Shown: positions 30,259 to 39,394 of the stretch, one piece after another | How positions within the stretch are numbered: the first letter of the stretch is position 1 | Layout: each line of letters starts with the position of its first letter | Source: Luteolibacter luteus | GTDB lineage: Bacteria > Verrucomicrobiota > Verrucomicrobiia > Verrucomicrobiales > Akkermansiaceae | Direction: 5' to 3' | NCBI RefSeq assembly: GCF_012913485.1 | Contig: NZ_CP051774.1 | Span: forward strand, 558,001 to 622,000 | Length of the DNA stretch: 64,000 nucleotides | Notes under the pieces: model-generated | Told to the model about the DNA's origin: nothing | Databases searched by the model: none | Seen by the model: only the letters and a program-made list of their open reading frames with translations | Translations under genes and position numbers: made by a program

Positions 30259-30942
30259 ATGAAAATCCGTACCTTCATCGCCACCATGGTCCTCGCCCTT
30301 CCAGCCGCCCAAGCGGCCGAACCGGGCTTCACCGATCTCTTCAATGGCAAGGATCTCGCCGGCTGGACCCGGGTGAATGGCAGCGGCGAATTCAAGATCG
30401 AGGGCAAGGAGATCGTCGGCTTCGGCGAGAACGTGAAGTCGAACACCTTCCTGCGCACGGACAAGACCTACAAGGACTTCGATTTTCGCTTCGAAATGAA
30501 GTTCGACGACCTTTCCGGAAACTCCGGCATGATGTTCCGCGGGCTTCAAAAGGAAGGCAATGACGGCCGGGTGCACGGCTACCAGTGCGAGCACGATCAG
30601 GACAAGAAGCGCGCGTGGACCGCCGGTCTCTACGATGAGGCCCGCCGCGGCTGGCTCCAGCCGGTGAAGCATGGCAATGCCAAGGATGACAGCGAGGAAG
30701 ACAAGAAGGGCCAAGCCGCTTTTACCAAGCAGGGGCAGGACCTGATGAAATGGAACGACTGGAACGAGATCCGCATCGTCTGCAAGGGCAAGCACATCCA
30801 GATCTGGCTCAACGGCAAGGAGCGCGTCGATTTAGAAGACGAGGGCAAGGAGTTCACACCGGAAGGTTTTTTCGCCCTGCAGGTGCATGCCGGGCCGTCC
30901 TGCAAGGTCCGCTGGCGCAACATCCGGATCAAGGAACTCTGA
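30259..30942 (+). CDS. Secreted DUF1080 / 3-keto-disaccharide hydrolase-type protein
   Basis: 227 residues with a signal peptide (TFIATMVLALPAAQA). The family pattern is clear: FTDLFNGKDLAGWT, then FRFEMKFDDLSGNSGMMFRG, EHDQDK, WNEIRIVCKGKHIQIWLNGK and FFALQVHAGP. DUF1080 is a jelly-roll domain abundant in Planctomycetes and Verrucomicrobia, with some members shown to hydrolyse keto-sugars. It carries an atypical charged insert (KDDSEEDKKGQAAF) around residue 140. Its 3' end overlaps the convergent regulator gene by 14 bases. Confidence 0.9.
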   Translation: MKIRTFIATMVLALPAAQAAEPGFTDLFNGKDLAGWTRVNGSGEFKIEGKEIVGFGENVKSNTFLRTDKTYKDFDFRFEMKFDDLSGNSGMMFRGLQKEGNDGRVHGYQCEHDQDKKRAWTAGLYDEARRGWLQPVKHGNAKDDSEEDKKGQAAFTKQGQDLMKWNDWNEIRIVCKGKHIQIWLNGKERVDLEDEGKEFTPEGFFALQVHAGPSCKVRWRNIRIKEL

Positions 30943-32827
30943 TCGGCCTCGTCGTTCCCAGAATCTCTTTCCACTCACCCTCGCCGAGCTCGGCGAGGGT
31001 GTTTGCTTTCCGGAGGCAAGGTCCTTCCACTGCTGCAGTGGTGATGGCGAGAACCCTGATCCCCGCAGCCTGCGCTGCGGCCACCCCATGGGGACTGTCC
31101 TCGATCGCGATGCAATCCTTCGGATCCACCCCAAGACGCTGGCAAGCCAGCAAGTAAACATCCGGCGCAGGCTTCCCTTCCGGCACCTCGTCCCCGGCAG
31201 CTCGCACCGGGAAATGCGATGCGAGCCCCGCCGATTCCAAACTGAGTTCTATGTCCTCGCGGTCACTGGAACTGGCCAAACCGATCCGAATCCGGTCCTC
31301 CATCAGCCGCTCCAGTAGCTCCCGCACTCCGGGCAGCACCTCGAGTGGGTTCGCCGCCAGCAGCGCACGCCACTTCGCTTTCCAGCCTTTCCGGAATTTC
31401 CGCACGTCGAAGCGGTCTTGCGCCATCGCACCAAGGGCGGTTTCGATCGCGGCATTCGAGAGCCCCATCAGCTTGCTGAAGTAAACCTCACGGCTGAGCT
31501 CCCCGCCTTGGGCGGCGAAGGCATGGCGATACGCTTCGAAATAGACCGGCTCGGTATCGAAGAGCGTGCCGTCCATATCGAAGATCACCGCGCTGACCAC
31601 CTTCCCCGGCGTCGCCGTCTCCGGCTTCCCGCGGAAGTCCGTGGGACGCTGGCCGGTCTCCGCCAGGAAAAACCGGCTCAACTCGTGGGCAGTGCCAAAT
31701 TGCATCTGTCGGGCGATCTCGGCGAGGCTGAGGCGATGATCCATCAAAAGATGCCTCAGGTGCCGGAGCCGCACCCGTTGGATCTCCTGCTTCGGCCCAT
31801 GGCCCAGCACCGTGGCGAAACGCGCCTTGATCGTGGTCATCGAAAGCGTCGTCCGCTCTGCCAGCTCGGCCACTCGCAACGCTTCATGCGGTGCCTGCCG
31901 GCGGATGAAGCGCACTAGGTCCCGGATCTCCTCATCCTCGATCGCCAGCGTATCGCTTGATTCCCTCGCCACCACCGTTTGCACCGCCACTTCCGTCCGC
32001 ACTGGAGGCGGAGCACCGCCATTCATCTGCTGCCAGAGCATGGCCGCAGCCTGCTTCCCGATCTCCCTGCCGGGGTAGGCGATGCTGCTCAGTGCGGGAA
32101 AGGTGGCGAAGCAATAGCTGGGATCATCACCGAAGCCGATCACCGCGAGCTCGCCCGGCACCCGGATGCCGAGACGATCCGCAGCCCGCAGCACGACAGC
32201 CCCCAGCGAATCATCCACCACGAAAAGCCCGCAGGGCCGCGGCAGCAGGTCAAGGAAAGCCATCACCTCCGTCTCGACCTCCCGCCATGTCTGATCCTTC
32301 CACAACGGCCTTCCCTTCAAATAATGAACCGTGGGCTCGATGGCATACTCCGCGAGCTTGGAGCGGAAGCCTCCCAACCTCTCACGGGCATAGCGCCGCA
32401 GCCCGGGAGCGAATTGCTCTTCGCGATAGAACGTCTCGCCACGGGCAAGGAAGGCGAAATGCGGGACGGAGCACTCGATCAAATGCTCCGCGGCCACCCG
32501 GCCGATCTGCTGGTTGTCCGGCACCACGCGCGGAAAGCCGAGATCCGGCCCCTCGGTGCTGGTGAGCACCACCGCTTGGCCGCGCCGCCGGAACTCCGCC
32601 AATTCATCTTCGGTCGCTCGGAAGAGGATCAGCCCATCCCCGTGCCACTCACGGTCGATCTTAACGGCCTCCATCTCGCCATAGGAGTCATTCTCCGTGG
32701 CCAGCCGCCAAGGATCCTCCTCCCGCATGAAATCGACCACGCCCGCCATGACCAGCGGACCATAGGAAGACCACACCGGGTGACGCATGGCGACACTGCG
32801 GCGGATCAGGGGAGGCTTGCCGTTCAT
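30929..32827 (-). CDS. XylR-type AraC regulator fused to HAD-family phosphatase
   Basis: 632 residues from MNGKPP. Residues about 5-290 are a periplasmic-binding-protein-like sugar-sensing domain as in XylR (GLILFRATEDELAEFRRRG, IGRVAAEHLIE, GLFVVDDSLGAVVLRAAD, AVIGFGDDPSYC). Residues about 300-400 are an AraC double HTH (VAELAERTTLSMTTIKARF, SLAEIARQMQFGTAHELSRFF). From residue 411 a complete HAD domain of the beta-phosphoglucomutase kind follows: FDMDGTLFDTEPVY (nucleophile Asp near residue 417), LASSSDRED, GKPAPDVY and IEDSPHG. All four HAD motifs are intact. The linker is continuous, without a stop. A GTG at 31588 with GGGGAAGG upstream could allow separate translation of the HAD part. 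Predicted sugar-responsive repressor/activator with sugar-phosphate phosphatase or mutase activity. Confidence 0.92.
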   Translation of the reverse strand: MNGKPPLIRRSVAMRHPVWSSYGPLVMAGVVDFMREEDPWRLATENDSYGEMEAVKIDREWHGDGLILFRATEDELAEFRRRGQAVVLTSTEGPDLGFPRVVPDNQQIGRVAAEHLIECSVPHFAFLARGETFYREEQFAPGLRRYARERLGGFRSKLAEYAIEPTVHYLKGRPLWKDQTWREVETEVMAFLDLLPRPCGLFVVDDSLGAVVLRAADRLGIRVPGELAVIGFGDDPSYCFATFPALSSIAYPGREIGKQAAAMLWQQMNGGAPPPVRTEVAVQTVVARESSDTLAIEDEEIRDLVRFIRRQAPHEALRVAELAERTTLSMTTIKARFATVLGHGPKQEIQRVRLRHLRHLLMDHRLSLAEIARQMQFGTAHELSRFFLAETGQRPTDFRGKPETATPGKVVSAVIFDMDGTLFDTEPVYFEAYRHAFAAQGGELSREVYFSKLMGLSNAAIETALGAMAQDRFDVRKFRKGWKAKWRALLAANPLEVLPGVRELLERLMEDRIRIGLASSSDREDIELSLESAGLASHFPVRAAGDEVPEGKPAPDVYLLACQRLGVDPKDCIAIEDSPHGVAAAQAAGIRVLAITTAAVEGPCLRKANTLAELGEGEWKEILGTTRPIRVP

Positions 32828-33004
32828 GGACGTCCGATTGAAGCCCAGCCCGTCCCCCGATGGCAAGCTGGCGCCAATTTCCCGCCGATATTCCCACGGC
32901 CTCTGACGAAATTGCCCCACTCATTTGAGCAGCCTTCCTAAGCCGTGATGCCAAGCCTACCGTTAGAAAACGGAAGTTCAATCCGTCTTCCCTAGATCAA
33001 GCCC

Positions 33005-35494
33005 ATGATGAACTCGTCACTTCCATCTCCCTTCGGCCGGCATATCCTGATGGTCTCAGCACTGCTGATCCCTCTCGCTTCTGCCGATCTCTATTCCACG
33101 GCCGTCCTCTCGGACTCCCCCCTCGCCTACTACGCGCTGGGAAATGCCGCTCCCACCAGTGTCGCCGCCAATAGCGGCAGCCTCGGTGCCGCCCTCAATG
33201 GCACTCACAACAATGTCCAGTATGGCGCGGTCGGTGCCCTGGTCGCCAACTCCAATACCTCCATTACTTATGGCGGCAGCGGGCGCACCGTGCTTTCCTA
33301 CAATGCCTCGCTGAATCCCGCGGCCTCCCAGTCCTTCACCGTCGAAGCATGGGTGAAGCCCGTGATCGGCGACGCCAGCCCCGAGGGGCGAATCGCGATT
33401 TCCAATCGCCAGGCCACCGGCAACTACCGGGGCTGGGCCTTCGTCCAAAAGGCGGATGAAAGCTCGGGCTGGAGTTTCCAGATGTTCAACCAATCCGGCA
33501 CCACTCCCGCCATCACCATCACCGGCGGGATGCGGACCCCGGGATTCTGGAGCCACCTCGTGGCAGTCTGGAATGCGGGCACCTCCACCGCGACGCTTTA
33601 CGTCGATGGCACCGCCGTCGGCTCCCAGACCTTGGCCGGCGGATATGTCGCCAACCCCGACGCCCCGCTCGTCATCGGGGCGGGCGATGCCGTGAATCCC
33701 GGCGCGAACGGCTACGCGGGCGATATCGATGAAGTCGCCTTTTACCCGAGCGCTCTCACCACCACCCAGATCGTGGAGCACACGGATAATGCCTTCAGCT
33801 TCGAGCCCACCGAGCCTTATGAAACCCTCCTCGCCGGCGATGGCGCCACACTTCACCTCCGCATGGCCGAGCAGGCATCCTGGCGTTCAGTCGCGACCAA
33901 CCTCGGCACCCTCGGATCAAATGGCAATGCACTCCACTTTCCGGGAGCGGTCCATCAGGTACCCGGTGCCCTCGCGACCGGGGGCGATACCGCACTGCGC
34001 TTCAACCGCATCGACAAGACTTCGAATGATGGTGGCTATCCCACCGTCCTGCCGAATCTTCCCGAATTCCAGACCGAAAGCTTCTCATGGGAAGGCTGGG
34101 TGAAACCCGCCGCGGAAGGTGCCGGAAACGCCCAATGCGTCGTGATGAACTACAATTCCGGGGCCAATCGCACCGGCTGGGTCCTCTGGCAACGCGGATC
34201 GGTGGCGGCCTCCAGTCCGGCGGAAGGCTTTGGCTGGAATCTCCGCCTCTACAACGGCACCGGCAACAACCGCACGATCAACATCACCACCGGCAACGCG
34301 GCGGGCGGTTACACGATCGGCCAGTGGCAGCATCTCGTGGTAACCTACGACAAGGCAACGCAGACTGCGGCCGTTTACGTCAATGGTGTCTCCGTGGCGA
34401 CCCAGACCGCCACCGCAGGCGACTATGTGCCAAACCCGGGAACGATCGTTCCGGCGTTCGGCGGTTTCGCCAACGGAACCGAGAATCCTTTCGAAGGTGA
34501 CATGGATGAGGTCGCCTTCTATGGCTCGGCTCTTACTCCCGCCCAAGTCTCGGCTCACTACGCGAATGGCACCAGCACTTCACCGGCCACCCCTTATCAG
34601 GATCTGGTCGTGTCCCACGCTCCGGTGGCTTACTACCGGATGAACGAGGCCGCGAAGGCCGTGGTGAACAACGCCGGAACCCTCGCCGCCGCAGCTGATG
34701 CCACTTTGGTGAATGCCCCTGAGGTGATCAACGGACCGCAGCCGCCAACCTATGCCGGCTTCGATCCTTCAACCGCTGCCAGCCGTTTCAATGGCGACGA
34801 TACCTATTTGGAGGTCCGTAACCCCGCAGGCCTGAACTTCACCGGCCCCATCACCTTGGAGGCTTGGGTACAACCCGCGGCAGCCCAGCCGAATGCCTCG
34901 GCAAACATCATCGGTCACGGCGGCAATGACAACTTCTCGGGCGAGGTTTTCCTCCGTATCGAAGGCGGCAACTACGAGATCGGTGCGAATGGCGGCAAGG
35001 CTTCCTTCCCCGTGCCCGCCGAAGATCTCGGCAGCACCGCGTGGGTCCACCTCGCCGGAACATGGGACGGCACCCAGTGGGCACTCTATCGCAATGGCAC
35101 CCAAGTCGCCACCGCCACCGCCGCAGGAGGTGCGGTCCTGGTCGACAATGCCAACTGGGCGGTCGGCGCACGCGGCCGCTGGAAGAATGGCGCGGGCTTC
35201 CCCGAAAATCCGGGAGGTGCCGCCCGTGTCTTCAACGGCGGAATCACCGATGCCGCCATCTATAATACCGCCCTCTCCGCCAGCCGGGTCAATGCACACT
35301 ACCTCGCGGGAACCGGCACGGTGAACGATCCGATCCTGACGATCTCCCGCCCGGGTGGAGTAATCACCTTGGACTGGGCAGGCGGCGTTTTACAGCAATC
35401 GGACGATCTCCTCCAGTGGAACGACGTCCCATCCGTCACCTCTCCCTATGCTCCGGCAGACGGACCAAGCCACTTCTATCGCCTGCGCTACTAA
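33005..35494 (+). CDS. Secreted triple-LamG protein
   Basis: 829 residues with a signal peptide (ILMVSALLIPLASA). Three concanavalin-A/LamG domains each begin with a similar sequence, SPLAYYALGNAAP (about 38), LHLRMAEQASW (about 285) and APVAYYRMNEAAK (about 540), and contain FTVEAWVKP/FSWEGWVKP/ITLEAWVQP and a GDIDEVAFYPSALT/GDMDEVAFYGSALT strand pair. The last 70 residues match the shared C-terminal module (QQSDDLLQWNDVPS, ending SHFYRLRY). Likely surface or extracellular carbohydrate-binding. It is divergent from the XylR-HAD gene and ends at an intrinsic terminator. Confidence 0.9.
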   Translation: MMNSSLPSPFGRHILMVSALLIPLASADLYSTAVLSDSPLAYYALGNAAPTSVAANSGSLGAALNGTHNNVQYGAVGALVANSNTSITYGGSGRTVLSYNASLNPAASQSFTVEAWVKPVIGDASPEGRIAISNRQATGNYRGWAFVQKADESSGWSFQMFNQSGTTPAITITGGMRTPGFWSHLVAVWNAGTSTATLYVDGTAVGSQTLAGGYVANPDAPLVIGAGDAVNPGANGYAGDIDEVAFYPSALTTTQIVEHTDNAFSFEPTEPYETLLAGDGATLHLRMAEQASWRSVATNLGTLGSNGNALHFPGAVHQVPGALATGGDTALRFNRIDKTSNDGGYPTVLPNLPEFQTESFSWEGWVKPAAEGAGNAQCVVMNYNSGANRTGWVLWQRGSVAASSPAEGFGWNLRLYNGTGNNRTINITTGNAAGGYTIGQWQHLVVTYDKATQTAAVYVNGVSVATQTATAGDYVPNPGTIVPAFGGFANGTENPFEGDMDEVAFYGSALTPAQVSAHYANGTSTSPATPYQDLVVSHAPVAYYRMNEAAKAVVNNAGTLAAAADATLVNAPEVINGPQPPTYAGFDPSTAASRFNGDDTYLEVRNPAGLNFTGPITLEAWVQPAAAQPNASANIIGHGGNDNFSGEVFLRIEGGNYEIGANGGKASFPVPAEDLGSTAWVHLAGTWDGTQWALYRNGTQVATATAAGGAVLVDNANWAVGARGRWKNGAGFPENPGGAARVFNGGITDAAIYNTALSASRVNAHYLAGTGTVNDPILTISRPGGVITLDWAGGVLQQSDDLLQWNDVPSVTSPYAPADGPSHFYRLRY

Positions 35495-35554: not shown

Positions 35555-35722
35555 AAGGGGCTGAAATCCCATCACACAGGCTTCGCAGAAGTGGTATCTG
35601 CCGGGAAAATAGCGGGCATCGTTTTGTGAAAATCAGCCTCCTTGTTTCGCCGAAATCCCCACGCCTCCCGGCGATATTGCCCGTTTCTCGGAAACCGCCG
35701 CCACCTCACGCTGGGCGGTGAA

Positions 35723-36547
35723 ATGAAATCCCGACTCTCCCTCCTGAGCATCCTCCTTTGCTCCACCCTCCCTTTGTCCGCCGCCACGTCGGTCTATGAA
35801 TGGACCTTCAACAACGGCGATCTCACCGCGGCAGCCGGGAACGGCACGATGGCTACCACTGGATCTGCCACCGTCTCCTTCGCGACGACGGACGGCACCA
35901 CGGTCCCCCATATCGGCGGCGTCGCCTCCGGCTACATGAGCGTGCCCTCTTTCACTGCAGGAGCGAATGGCGTGCTGCTGACCTTTGCCGATAGCGCCCC
36001 GAATGGCGGCGGAGCCTACCTGAATCAGTACACCATCCTGATGGACATTTACAGCCCCGGCGCGGCGGGCTGGCAGGCACTGATGAACACGGCCACCGAT
36101 AACGCCAATGATGCCGATTGGTACATCTCCGACACGGGTGGCCTCGGCATAGGCGAACTCGGCTATTCTTCCGGTGGTGCCGTAACGCAGAACTCCTGGC
36201 AGCGCATCGCGATGAGCGCTGATCTCGCCGCGGGAACCGTCAAATACTATGTGAATGGTAACTTGGTGAAGACCCGCACCGGGGGATCCCTTCTTGACGG
36301 ACGCTTCGCCGTCTACACGAACAATCATCCGGGTGCCGACCTTCTTCTCTTCAATGAAGGGGACAACTCAGGCAGCTACGTCCATCCGCTGCTGGTGGGC
36401 TCGGTGGCCTTCACCGATCAAGCGCTTGGCGACTCCGCCATCGCATCCCTCGGTGGTCCCTCCGCCAATGGCATCCTCGTTCCGGAGCCCTCCGCCGCCC
36501 TGCTCGGTGCGCTCGGAATGACGGCGCTGCTCCGCCGCCGCCGCTGA
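35723..36547 (+). CDS. PEP-CTERM protein with LamG-like domain
   Basis: 274 residues from MKSRLSLLSILLCSTLPLSAA, a signal peptide. The body is a jelly-roll similar to LamG (VYEWTFNNGDLTAAAGNGTM, NQYTILMDIYSP, WQRIAMSADLAAGTVKYYVN). The C-terminus has VPEPSAALLGALGMTALLRR followed by RR, i.e. the PEP motif, a hydrophobic helix and a basic tail, the signal cleaved by exosortase. No exosortase gene is in the window. Probably processed at the outer face of the inner membrane and released or anchored. Confidence 0.9.
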   Translation: MKSRLSLLSILLCSTLPLSAATSVYEWTFNNGDLTAAAGNGTMATTGSATVSFATTDGTTVPHIGGVASGYMSVPSFTAGANGVLLTFADSAPNGGGAYLNQYTILMDIYSPGAAGWQALMNTATDNANDADWYISDTGGLGIGELGYSSGGAVTQNSWQRIAMSADLAAGTVKYYVNGNLVKTRTGGSLLDGRFAVYTNNHPGADLLLFNEGDNSGSYVHPLLVGSVAFTDQALGDSAIASLGGPSANGILVPEPSAALLGALGMTALLRRRR

Positions 36548-36658: not shown

Positions 36659-39394
36659 ATGAAACGCTCCGATTTCCTCCGCCTCTCGGCGCTCGGCTCC
36701 CTCGGTCTGGCCACCCGCAGCTTCGCATTGCCCGAAGGCTACACCGGCATTCCCGCTGGCATCCGCCCCTACCTGCAAACACCGCGCCCTGACTCGATGT
36801 GGGTTTCATGGTTCTCCGATAATGCTCCGAGCGGACAGATCGAATGGGGCACCTCGCCAGCAAACCTCAACAACACGGTCAACGCCGCGCTCGACGTGCT
36901 CGGCACCGGCTATCACTACCACGCCGGACGCATCACCGGACTCTCGCCGGCGAGCTACTATTACTACCGGGTCCGCAATGGCTCCACAGTTTCGGACGTC
37001 TTCCGCTTCCGCACACCGGTCCCCGCAGGCACCAAGACGGGGCGCATGCGCGTGCTCGTGATGGGCGACAACCAGATCATCGGCGAAAACCGCTACGAGA
37101 AACTCATCGCCTGCGCCAAGGCGAAGATCGAATCGACCTACGGCGTGCCCATCGAGGAAGTCATCGATTTCATCCTGATGCCCGGGGACCAGGTGGATGT
37201 CGGCACCCTCGATCACTACCGGAACCTGCACTTCAAGCAGTGCGGCCTGATCTCCCCGAATATCCCGATCATGACCACGGTCGGGAACCATGAGACCTAC
37301 TACGATACCAACCTCGATCTCTACAGCCGGATCTTCCGCTACGATGACATCAGCTACGCCAATACTCCCGGCACGGAAGGCGAGAAATACTATGCTTACC
37401 AGCTGGCAAACATCGCGTTCATCCACACCAGCAGCGAACACACCACCACCGCGCAGAAGCAGTGGGTCCGTTCCTTGGTCGATGCCCTGAAGACCGATGC
37501 CTCCACGGATCTCTGCGTGAGCGTGGTCCACCGACCCTACCAAGCGGAGCAATACGTGGGCGACATCTCCGGATGGTTCCGCAGCGAGATCATGCCGATG
37601 CTGGCGGAGACGGAGAAGCATGTGCTGAACATCGGTGCGCATCACCATCTCTACGCCCGCGGCCAGACCCGCGAGTGGCCGATCTACCACATCATCTCCG
37701 GTGGCACCGCCTGGGACCAGTACTGGGGCCAGTCCTCGGAATCGGATTTCGACGACGTCCAGAAAACCATCGCCCACTGGGCCTGGCAGCTCATGGACTT
37801 TGACCTCTCCGCCCGGACCATGGAGGTCACCTGCTATGCGGAGGCCAATGTGAAACTCTCTGCCGAGACCCGCTGGAACTACAACAGCCGGATCATCGAC
37901 AGCTTCCACCGCAAGCTCGGCCTCGAAGCTCCAAACAAGCCTGCACTTGAGAATACCTTCAGTGGTCCGGTCACTCTGCCGCTCGAACTCATCAGCAGCG
38001 CTTACCAGAGTGGCAGCGGGGAGGCGATCAATAGCACTTGGTTCCAGATCGCCGCCGATTCTGGATTCACCAATCTCAAGATCGATCGCATTCGCGACGT
38101 GGAGAATCTCTACGGCGACACCGGTGCTCCGCTCTACGAACCGGTAAATATCCACGCGAACGTGGACATCCTGCGCCTCGCCGTTTCTTCCGGCATCTAC
38201 AATGGCACCCACTACGCCCGTGTCCGCCATCGCGACACGAATGCGATGTGGTCCGCATGGTCGGATGCCATCGCCTTCACCGTTGAAGGCAGCACCAGCG
38301 GGCCGACCGCCCTGAAGCTTGCGAAGACCGTCTATGCCCCGAACGAGGACTTCCTGGCTACCTACGAAAATGGCACCGGCCTGCCGAAGGACTGGATTGG
38401 CATTTACAAGAAGGGCCAAAAGCCCGGCTCGGGGGCCGGCACCGTCACTTCCACCACCTGGCAATATGTCGATGCCGCGAACCTGGTGAACGGCACGCGG
38501 AACTTCACCTACAACCTGCCGGTTGGCGAATGGTACGCCGCCTTCTTCACCAACGATGGCTACACCGAGATCGCTCCGCGCGTTCCTTTCTATGTCGGCA
38601 ATGCAGCTGTCATCAGCACCGCGAAGGAAGCTTACGACGAAGGGGAGACCGTGAGCATCCAGTTCTCGAACGCCCCTGCAGGAGCCACGGATTGGATTGG
38701 CATCTACCAGATCGGCCAGACCCCGGGAGGCCCCCTTTCGACGCAATACAAGTATGCGCCCACCGCCTCGGGATCACTCGACTTCACGGGCCTCCCGAAG
38801 GGATACTACTTCGCCTCCTTCTTCGTGAATGATGGCTATCAGGAGATCAGCCAGCGCATCGTTTTCTCCGTGGGAACGCAGATCACGAGCGTCTCGATGG
38901 AATCGAACCAGATCACCGCGGGCAGCGACTTCACGGTGAGCTTCAACAAGGGCCCCGGCATCCCGAAGGACTGGATCGGCATCTTCAAGCAAGGCGATGT
39001 CCCCGGCGTGGACGTCCTCACCGCCTATCTCTACTTCGCGGGCGCCACCTCCGGTAGCGTGACCTTCCACCTGCCAGATCTTCCACCGGGTGATTACTTC
39101 GCGGCGATGTTCACGAACGACTCCTACACGGAGGTCTCGAACCGCTTCCTCTTCACCATCGTCGGCCAATCCGAACTCAAATTCGAGCAGGCGACGATGG
39201 AGGGAAATGAAATGCGCTTCCGTTGGAAGTCCCAGAGCGGACGTAGCTACAAGATCCAGAAAAGCACGACTTTGGCTACCGACTCATGGATGGATATCCG
39301 CACCGTTACCGCCAGTGGCGCCAGCCATGAGGAACTTGTGCCGATCGATCGCCTCGCAAACCCGAACTGCTTCTTCCGGGTGGTAGAGAATTGA
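36659..39394 (+). CDS. Exported purple-acid-phosphatase-like metallophosphoesterase with three DWIG(I) domains
   Basis: 911 residues. The N-terminus MKRSDFLRLSALGSLGLATRS resembles a Tat-type signal. Residues about 30-125 are a purple acid phosphatase N-terminal Fn3-like domain (GIRPYLQTPRPDSMWVSWF), followed by a calcineurin-like phosphoesterase domain (about 130-385) with metal motifs MGDNQI, MPGDQVD, VGNHE, VVHRPY and GAHHHLYAR. A Fn3-like domain (about 410-545) precedes three tandem 95-residue repeats (about 551-838) that each contain DWIGI(Y/F) K/Q-x-G-(Q/D) and end in (FTNDGYTEIA, FVNDGYQEIS, FTNDSYTEVS), similar to the SKICH-type immunoglobulin-like fold. The last 70 residues are the shared C-terminal module, ending NCFFRVVEN. 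Predicted exported phosphatase; substrate unknown. Confidence 0.88.
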   Translation: MKRSDFLRLSALGSLGLATRSFALPEGYTGIPAGIRPYLQTPRPDSMWVSWFSDNAPSGQIEWGTSPANLNNTVNAALDVLGTGYHYHAGRITGLSPASYYYYRVRNGSTVSDVFRFRTPVPAGTKTGRMRVLVMGDNQIIGENRYEKLIACAKAKIESTYGVPIEEVIDFILMPGDQVDVGTLDHYRNLHFKQCGLISPNIPIMTTVGNHETYYDTNLDLYSRIFRYDDISYANTPGTEGEKYYAYQLANIAFIHTSSEHTTTAQKQWVRSLVDALKTDASTDLCVSVVHRPYQAEQYVGDISGWFRSEIMPMLAETEKHVLNIGAHHHLYARGQTREWPIYHIISGGTAWDQYWGQSSESDFDDVQKTIAHWAWQLMDFDLSARTMEVTCYAEANVKLSAETRWNYNSRIIDSFHRKLGLEAPNKPALENTFSGPVTLPLELISSAYQSGSGEAINSTWFQIAADSGFTNLKIDRIRDVENLYGDTGAPLYEPVNIHANVDILRLAVSSGIYNGTHYARVRHRDTNAMWSAWSDAIAFTVEGSTSGPTALKLAKTVYAPNEDFLATYENGTGLPKDWIGIYKKGQKPGSGAGTVTSTTWQYVDAANLVNGTRNFTYNLPVGEWYAAFFTNDGYTEIAPRVPFYVGNAAVISTAKEAYDEGETVSIQFSNAPAGATDWIGIYQIGQTPGGPLSTQYKYAPTASGSLDFTGLPKGYYFASFFVNDGYQEISQRIVFSVGTQITSVSMESNQITAGSDFTVSFNKGPGIPKDWIGIFKQGDVPGVDVLTAYLYFAGATSGSVTFHLPDLPPGDYFAAMFTNDSYTEVSNRFLFTIVGQSELKFEQATMEGNEMRFRWKSQSGRSYKIQKSTTLATDSWMDIRTVTASGASHEELVPIDRLANPNCFFRVVEN

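Follow-up and report, generated by a model that had tools for sequence, protein, structure and literature searches.

The window, that is, the whole stretch of 64,000 nucleotides of Luteolibacter luteus DNA that was analysed, carries on its minus strand, between 30929 and 32827, a single open frame of 632 codons counted from ATG 32827. The encoded protein consists of an XylR-type sugar-binding domain, an AraC-type helix-turn-helix (HTH), a short linker and a complete HAD (C1-cap) phosphatase domain. The 3' end of the gene overlaps a convergent gene with a 3keto-disac_hyd domain by 14 bp (30929-30942). The features of the locus are listed below, with residues counted from ATG 32827.

30259..30942, plus strand: convergent neighbour with a 3keto-disac_hyd (DUF1080-type) domain, kept in 5 loci, outside the predicted regulon
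30929..32827, minus strand: gene of the fusion (XylR-type regulator and HAD phosphatase), 632 aa, ATG 32827, stop 30929-30931
31034..31594, minus strand: HAD-IA, C1-cap phosphatase domain, residues 412-598; D417, D419, S519, K552, E576 and D577 invariant in 12 orthologues
31595..31630, minus strand: linker, residues 400-411, differing among orthologues; model confidence is lowest at 402-408
31631..31864, minus strand: AraC-type helix-turn-helix domain, residues 322-399 (Pfam HTH_18, 5.1e-15)
31955..32803, minus strand: LacI/periplasmic-binding-protein-like sensor domain, residues 9-291 (Peripla_BP_3 at 113-291, and structure matches to XylR/LacI)
32882..32916, minus strand: predicted operator 1, GGCAATTTCGTCAG-N7-GGGAATATCGGCGG, period 21 bp, upstream of both the fusion ATG (by 54 bp) and the divergent LamG gene (by 88 bp)
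33005..35494, plus strand: divergent gene, predicted target; its secreted product has three Laminin_G_3 domains
35647..35681, minus strand: predicted operator 2, GGCAATATCGCCGG-N7-GGGGATTTCGGCGA, 41 bp before ATG 35723
35723..36547, plus strand: predicted target, a secreted protein of PEP-CTERM/LamG-like type; the ATG that follows operator 2 is taken as its start
36659..39394, plus strand: secreted purple acid phosphatase-like protein (Pur_ac_phosph_N and Metallophos), homologue in 14 of 21 loci, predicted target

The fused protein and its HAD domain

The frame is free of stops from 32920 (first GTG) or 32827 (ATG) down to the stop at 30929. Judged from the alignment, the ATG is the better start, since conservation among the fused orthologues begins only around residue 9 and the conserved operator-like repeat at 32882-32916 would lie inside the GTG version. 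The Pfam matches fall in the order Peripla_BP_3 (113-291, 1.7e-25), HTH_18 (322-399, 5.1e-15) and HAD_2 (414-595, 3.6e-37). The regulator half is of the XylR type, that is, a LacI/periplasmic-binding-like sensor followed by a C-terminal AraC HTH, with no N-terminal LacI HTH, and it probably responds to a sugar. E. coli XylR aligns with residues 20-384 (E ~1e-21), and the last 220 residues align with HAD-IA C1-cap sugar phosphatases, TM_1254 of T. maritima being the best. We have also built an AlphaFold model, with the window protein and 11 orthologues as input. It shows three ordered domains, with the linker at 402-408 of low confidence and predicted to be disordered; with an overall pTM of 0.57, the arrangement of the domains relative to one another cannot be trusted. 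A Foldseek search with this model returned E. coli XylR first, followed by TM_1254, a LacI ancestor, CbbY and beta-phosphoglucomutase (beta-PGM).

All four HAD motifs are present in the fusion (D417/D419 of the DxD motif, S519, K552 and E576/D577), and they are invariant in 12 of 12 fused orthologues. The HAD domain passes the TIGR01509 cut-off (71.9 vs 29.4 bits). It misses those of the beta-PGM families TIGR01990 (104.3 vs 189.4 bits) and TIGR02009 (133.1 vs 153.35 bits), as well as that of the HxpB equivalog (104.6 vs 191 bits). His20 and Arg49 of beta-PGM are residues with roles in the mutase reaction. In the alignment, these positions are Tyr429 and Asn458 in the fusion, both invariant in the fused proteins. 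The replacement of these key residues and the missed family cut-offs make mutase activity improbable. Since the residues are absent, the sequence makes a phosphatase likelier than a beta-phosphoglucomutase.

The original prediction had described a complete XylR-type regulator joined in one frame to a complete, beta-phosphoglucomutase-like HAD domain with all four catalytic motifs. The open frame, the Pfam order and the occurrence of the fusion in 11 other species agree with the first part, and the motifs are indeed intact. The term 'beta-phosphoglucomutase-like' describes the fold correctly, though probably not the activity. The same prediction had suggested that free HAD might additionally be made from an internal start at GTG 31588. 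We have rejected this start, as neither its codon nor its Shine-Dalgarno-like stretch is conserved: the codon reads GTC in five relatives (G003, G015, G012, G014 and G336), and only the window genome has the GGGGAAGG stretch ahead of it.

The HAD domain could alternatively be a second sensor, which would bind a phosphorylated ligand and signal to the HTH, with catalysis minor or of no importance. There is a precedent in BzdR, where a shikimate-kinase-like domain has turned into an effector-binding domain (PMC3602430). Nevertheless, the invariant catalytic residues in the 12 orthologues do not resemble those of a decayed enzyme, and the fusion already has a LacI-type sensor domain, which make this explanation improbable. 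Overall, the domain is apparently a working sugar-phosphate phosphatase, as far as its residues and their conservation can tell.

Conservation and history of the fusion

The same domain order, for which the original prediction had proposed a search in relatives, was found without interruption in 11 other species, namely seven of the same genus, three of a sister genus and one of another family of the order. Within the genus, 8 of the 18 species examined carry the fusion, the window genome included. The fused orthologues are 53-72% identical to the window protein. In class-wide and phylum-wide samples, no further fusion was detected at the E-values used, and a scan of named genomes returned nothing but a distant archaeal HAD. 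Among the long frames in the match lists, those of G716 and G005 were inspected and others (e.g. G353 and G259) were left out. The G716 frame turned out to be merely a stop-free extension, and the extra length of the 771-codon G005 frame is an open stretch upstream, the frame ending after the HTH.

Unfused orthologues were found in G005 (68% identical), G139, G205, G150, G025, G239, G240 and G039, and as a second copy in G179. No HAD gene adjoins any unfused XylR orthologue within the stretches read. The original prediction would have been refuted by a missed stop codon or frameshift at about 31590-31620, or by relatives that always have two separate genes. Neither is the case: eleven other species show the uninterrupted frame, and the relatives without the fusion have no adjacent HAD gene in the stretches read. 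With 11 species sharing this single-frame architecture, the fusion is neither a chance join nor a frameshift product. We found nothing in favour of an assembly or sequencing artefact that joined two neighbouring genes, and regard it as having a negligible probability.

The history of the fusion can be read in part from the trees. In the XylR tree, the fused state requires three changes, with G005 nested among the fused proteins and G336 among unfused branches. The position of G005 points to domain loss, and its HAD domain has probably been lost, though this genome is a 61% complete draft and the HAD could sit elsewhere in it. The HAD domains form one clade (99/98). Two free-standing genes, from G142 and G025, also fall within this clade, though their nested position is weakly supported; these free genes may possibly have been released from a fusion. 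In addition, the distance from the end of the HTH to the beginning of the HAD is short and similar in all fused proteins, which points to a single fusion point. The simplest reading of these sequences is an early fusion followed by several losses or releases of the HAD domain, although the inner tree support is limited. The fusion would have arisen once or a few times, and its HAD domain would later have been lost or released in some lineages. The loci concerned are as follows.

L045:10627-12942: close unfused orthologue in G005; its frame stops directly behind the HTH, and both the operator-like repeat and the purple acid phosphatase are retained
L104:739-2184 and L105:1387-2151: free HAD genes of G142 and G025, grouping inside the fused-HAD clade and adjoining DUF5690 genes

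We have further calculated dN/dS for the separate parts of the protein. The HAD domain shows values of 0.06-0.16, which indicate purifying selection, although they are rough, being derived only from pairs with estimable dS, where dS is near saturation. On the other hand, the linker drifts freely, with dN/dS from 0.27 to more than 1 among orthologues at few sites.

These observations bear on a second alternative, in which the fusion serves co-expression only. The HAD would act independently in the same pathway, and the fusion would ensure joint production with no signal between the parts. The free-standing relatives of the HAD in G142 and G025, the G005 protein without a HAD domain, and a linker that is short, variable and predicted to be disordered are all in line with it. 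On the other hand, 12 species have retained the fusion with its HAD domain under constraint, and a regulator is an odd carrier for a pathway enzyme, since regulators are usually low in amount. Weighing both sides, we consider this explanation rather unlikely, though by no means negligible.

A predicted operator and the neighbouring phosphoesterase genes

A direct repeat with a period of 21 bp and a half-site of about GGCAWWWTCGNCGG lies upstream of both fused and unfused genes. The motif was first picked by eye. With leave-one-out matrices, each built from the first half-sites of all genomes but the one scored, the top second half-site was exactly 21 bp away in 9 of 9 genomes, these nine being the genomes where the motif had been seen by eye. 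In the window, 2 sites were found against 0.05 expected, both in the cluster of the fusion gene. Their scores are 28.6 (32882-32916) and 25.6 (35647-35681), and the next best is 14.5. The sites of the relatives are on the opposite strand and precede the start codons of secreted genes (purple acid phosphatase, Exo_endo_phos, LamG and others) by 31-45 bp. Shuffled sequence (371 kb) gave no match. G003 and G015 have no strong site directly before the fusion gene, and each has one before another cluster gene. From these sequence patterns, the direct repeat is the likely DNA-binding site of the fusion regulator.

The genomes were also searched more widely by a pattern with mismatches, where many of the 3-mismatch matches look like chance occurrences in coding sequence. 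Some strong sites elsewhere in relatives adjoin Exo_endo_phos, metallophosphoesterase and secreted-protein/TPR-sulfotransferase genes, which suggests that the predicted regulon consists mostly of secreted phosphoesterases. The following repeats, away from the fusion locus, may represent a possible wider regulon.

L157:4073-4107: operator-like 21-bp-period repeat in a relative
L159:4125-4159: the same
L160:3947-3981: the same
L161:3990-4024: the same
L162:3889-3923: the same

Across the 21 fused and unfused loci, the commonest constant neighbour is the secreted purple acid phosphatase-like protein (14 loci), and other recurrent neighbours are Exo_endo_phos proteins, LamG/PEP-CTERM proteins and TPR-sulfotransferases. 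A DUF5690 permease is found inside the cluster in six of these loci, and such permeases also stand beside both free HAD genes. In addition, a more distant XylR relative (G366) adjoins an organophosphate-antiporter-like gene. The DUF5690 permeases beside a purple acid phosphatase cluster or free HAD genes are located as follows.

L040:2796-4157
L041:17594-18886
L043:2720-4045
L044:1970-3661
L104:92-1405

The best match of the DUF5690 AlphaFold model (mean pLDDT 74) is the human glucose-6-phosphate transporter (G6PT), with other MFS sugar carriers close behind. Since MFS folds are alike, this model match is weak evidence on the substrate. We found no mention of DUF5690 in the open-access papers searched. 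DUF5690 is absent from the fusion-bearing window genome and from G003, G015 and G007; sugar-phosphate import there would have to proceed without DUF5690 as the entry route.

Proposed role and comparison with known systems

Taken together, we lean towards a reading in which the fusion protein is the regulator of an organophosphate-use regulon and carries a phosphatase for imported sugar phosphate, by which it may set its own ligand level in cis. The HTH domain would bind the direct repeats with the 21-bp period, both the one lying between the fusion gene and the divergent cluster and those in front of further units of the cluster. Judging from gene content, the cluster products (purple acid phosphatase, Exo_endo_phos, LamG/PEP-CTERM proteins and sometimes a DUF5690 permease) would use extracellular organophosphates. 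The cytosolic HAD domain, with its intact catalytic residues under purifying selection, would dephosphorylate a sugar (or polyol) phosphate taken up by the cell or formed in it. In the least certain step, the freed sugar, or the removed phosphate ester, would be the signal for the attached sensor, and the enzyme would thus set the ligand level of its own regulator.

The occurrence in 12 species, the invariant HAD residues and the constrained HAD beside a free linker support the organophosphate-regulon reading, as do the purple acid phosphatase neighbour, the operator statistics, the DUF5690 genes beside clusters and free HADs, and the neighbour of the G366 relative. Counting against it are the four genomes with the fusion and no DUF5690, the missing strong site before the fusion gene in G003 and G015, the motif having been picked by eye, and the weak G6PT evidence. 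In addition, operator, phosphatase and regulator are all retained in G005, whose regulator lacks the HAD, which indicates that the basic switch can do without this domain. The original prediction had supposed that the join couples gene control to sugar-phosphate metabolism. Such a link fits the conserved neighbourhood and the operator, while the coupling in cis is only inferred; that the attached phosphatase makes or destroys the sensor's ligand in cis, as a self-tuning regulator, is a tentative proposal. If true, one polypeptide would sense the flux through sugar-phosphate dephosphorylation rather than the bulk sugar concentration. With a predicted operator and a predicted regulon of secreted phosphoesterases, whether cis catalysis tunes the ligand of the regulator is directly testable. 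The fused orthologues, the unfused orthologues, one probable domain loss and the free HAD relatives are natural controls for this question. The analysis also offers a hint to the function of DUF5690 and of the secreted purple acid phosphatase clusters in these bacteria.

Among known systems, E. coli XylR, the xylose operon regulator (PDB 4fe4, 4fe7), is the best sequence and fold match to the first 400 residues. It likewise has a LacI-like sensor without the LacI HTH, followed by an AraC-type HTH; however, it has no enzyme domain, and it controls xylose catabolism instead of secreted phosphoesterase genes as predicted here. The best HAD matches, TM_1254 (PDB 3kbb) and E. coli YniC/HxpB (PDB 1te2), share the same catalytic motifs, and at the position of beta-PGM His20 they have Tyr and Trp, respectively, not His. 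Unlike the fused HAD, both are free-standing enzymes. L. lactis beta-phosphoglucomutase (PDB 1lvh) has the fold and the catalytic core in common with the fused HAD, at 31% identity.

Regulator-enzyme fusions include NadR and PutA, and to our knowledge few transcription factors are joined to a metabolic enzyme whose catalytic site is intact. We found no report of an XylR-HAD fusion in the open-access literature searched, which omits most subscription papers. In the bifunctional mannitol-1-phosphate dehydrogenase/phosphatase MtlD (PDB 7oct), a HAD phosphatase of the same subgroup is also fused to a sugar-pathway domain, but the partner is a dehydrogenase instead of a regulator and the HAD is N-terminal (residues 7-194 of 727 matched). 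BzdR, like the protein described here, combines a DNA-binding regulator and an enzyme-type domain in one polypeptide; its enzyme-like domain is the effector-binding domain, and the model of its origin includes the loss of enzyme activity (PMC3602430). Unlike BzdR, the present fusion has a separate sensor domain beside an intact catalytic domain, and it adds a sugar-sensor/phosphatase version to the regulator-enzyme fusions.
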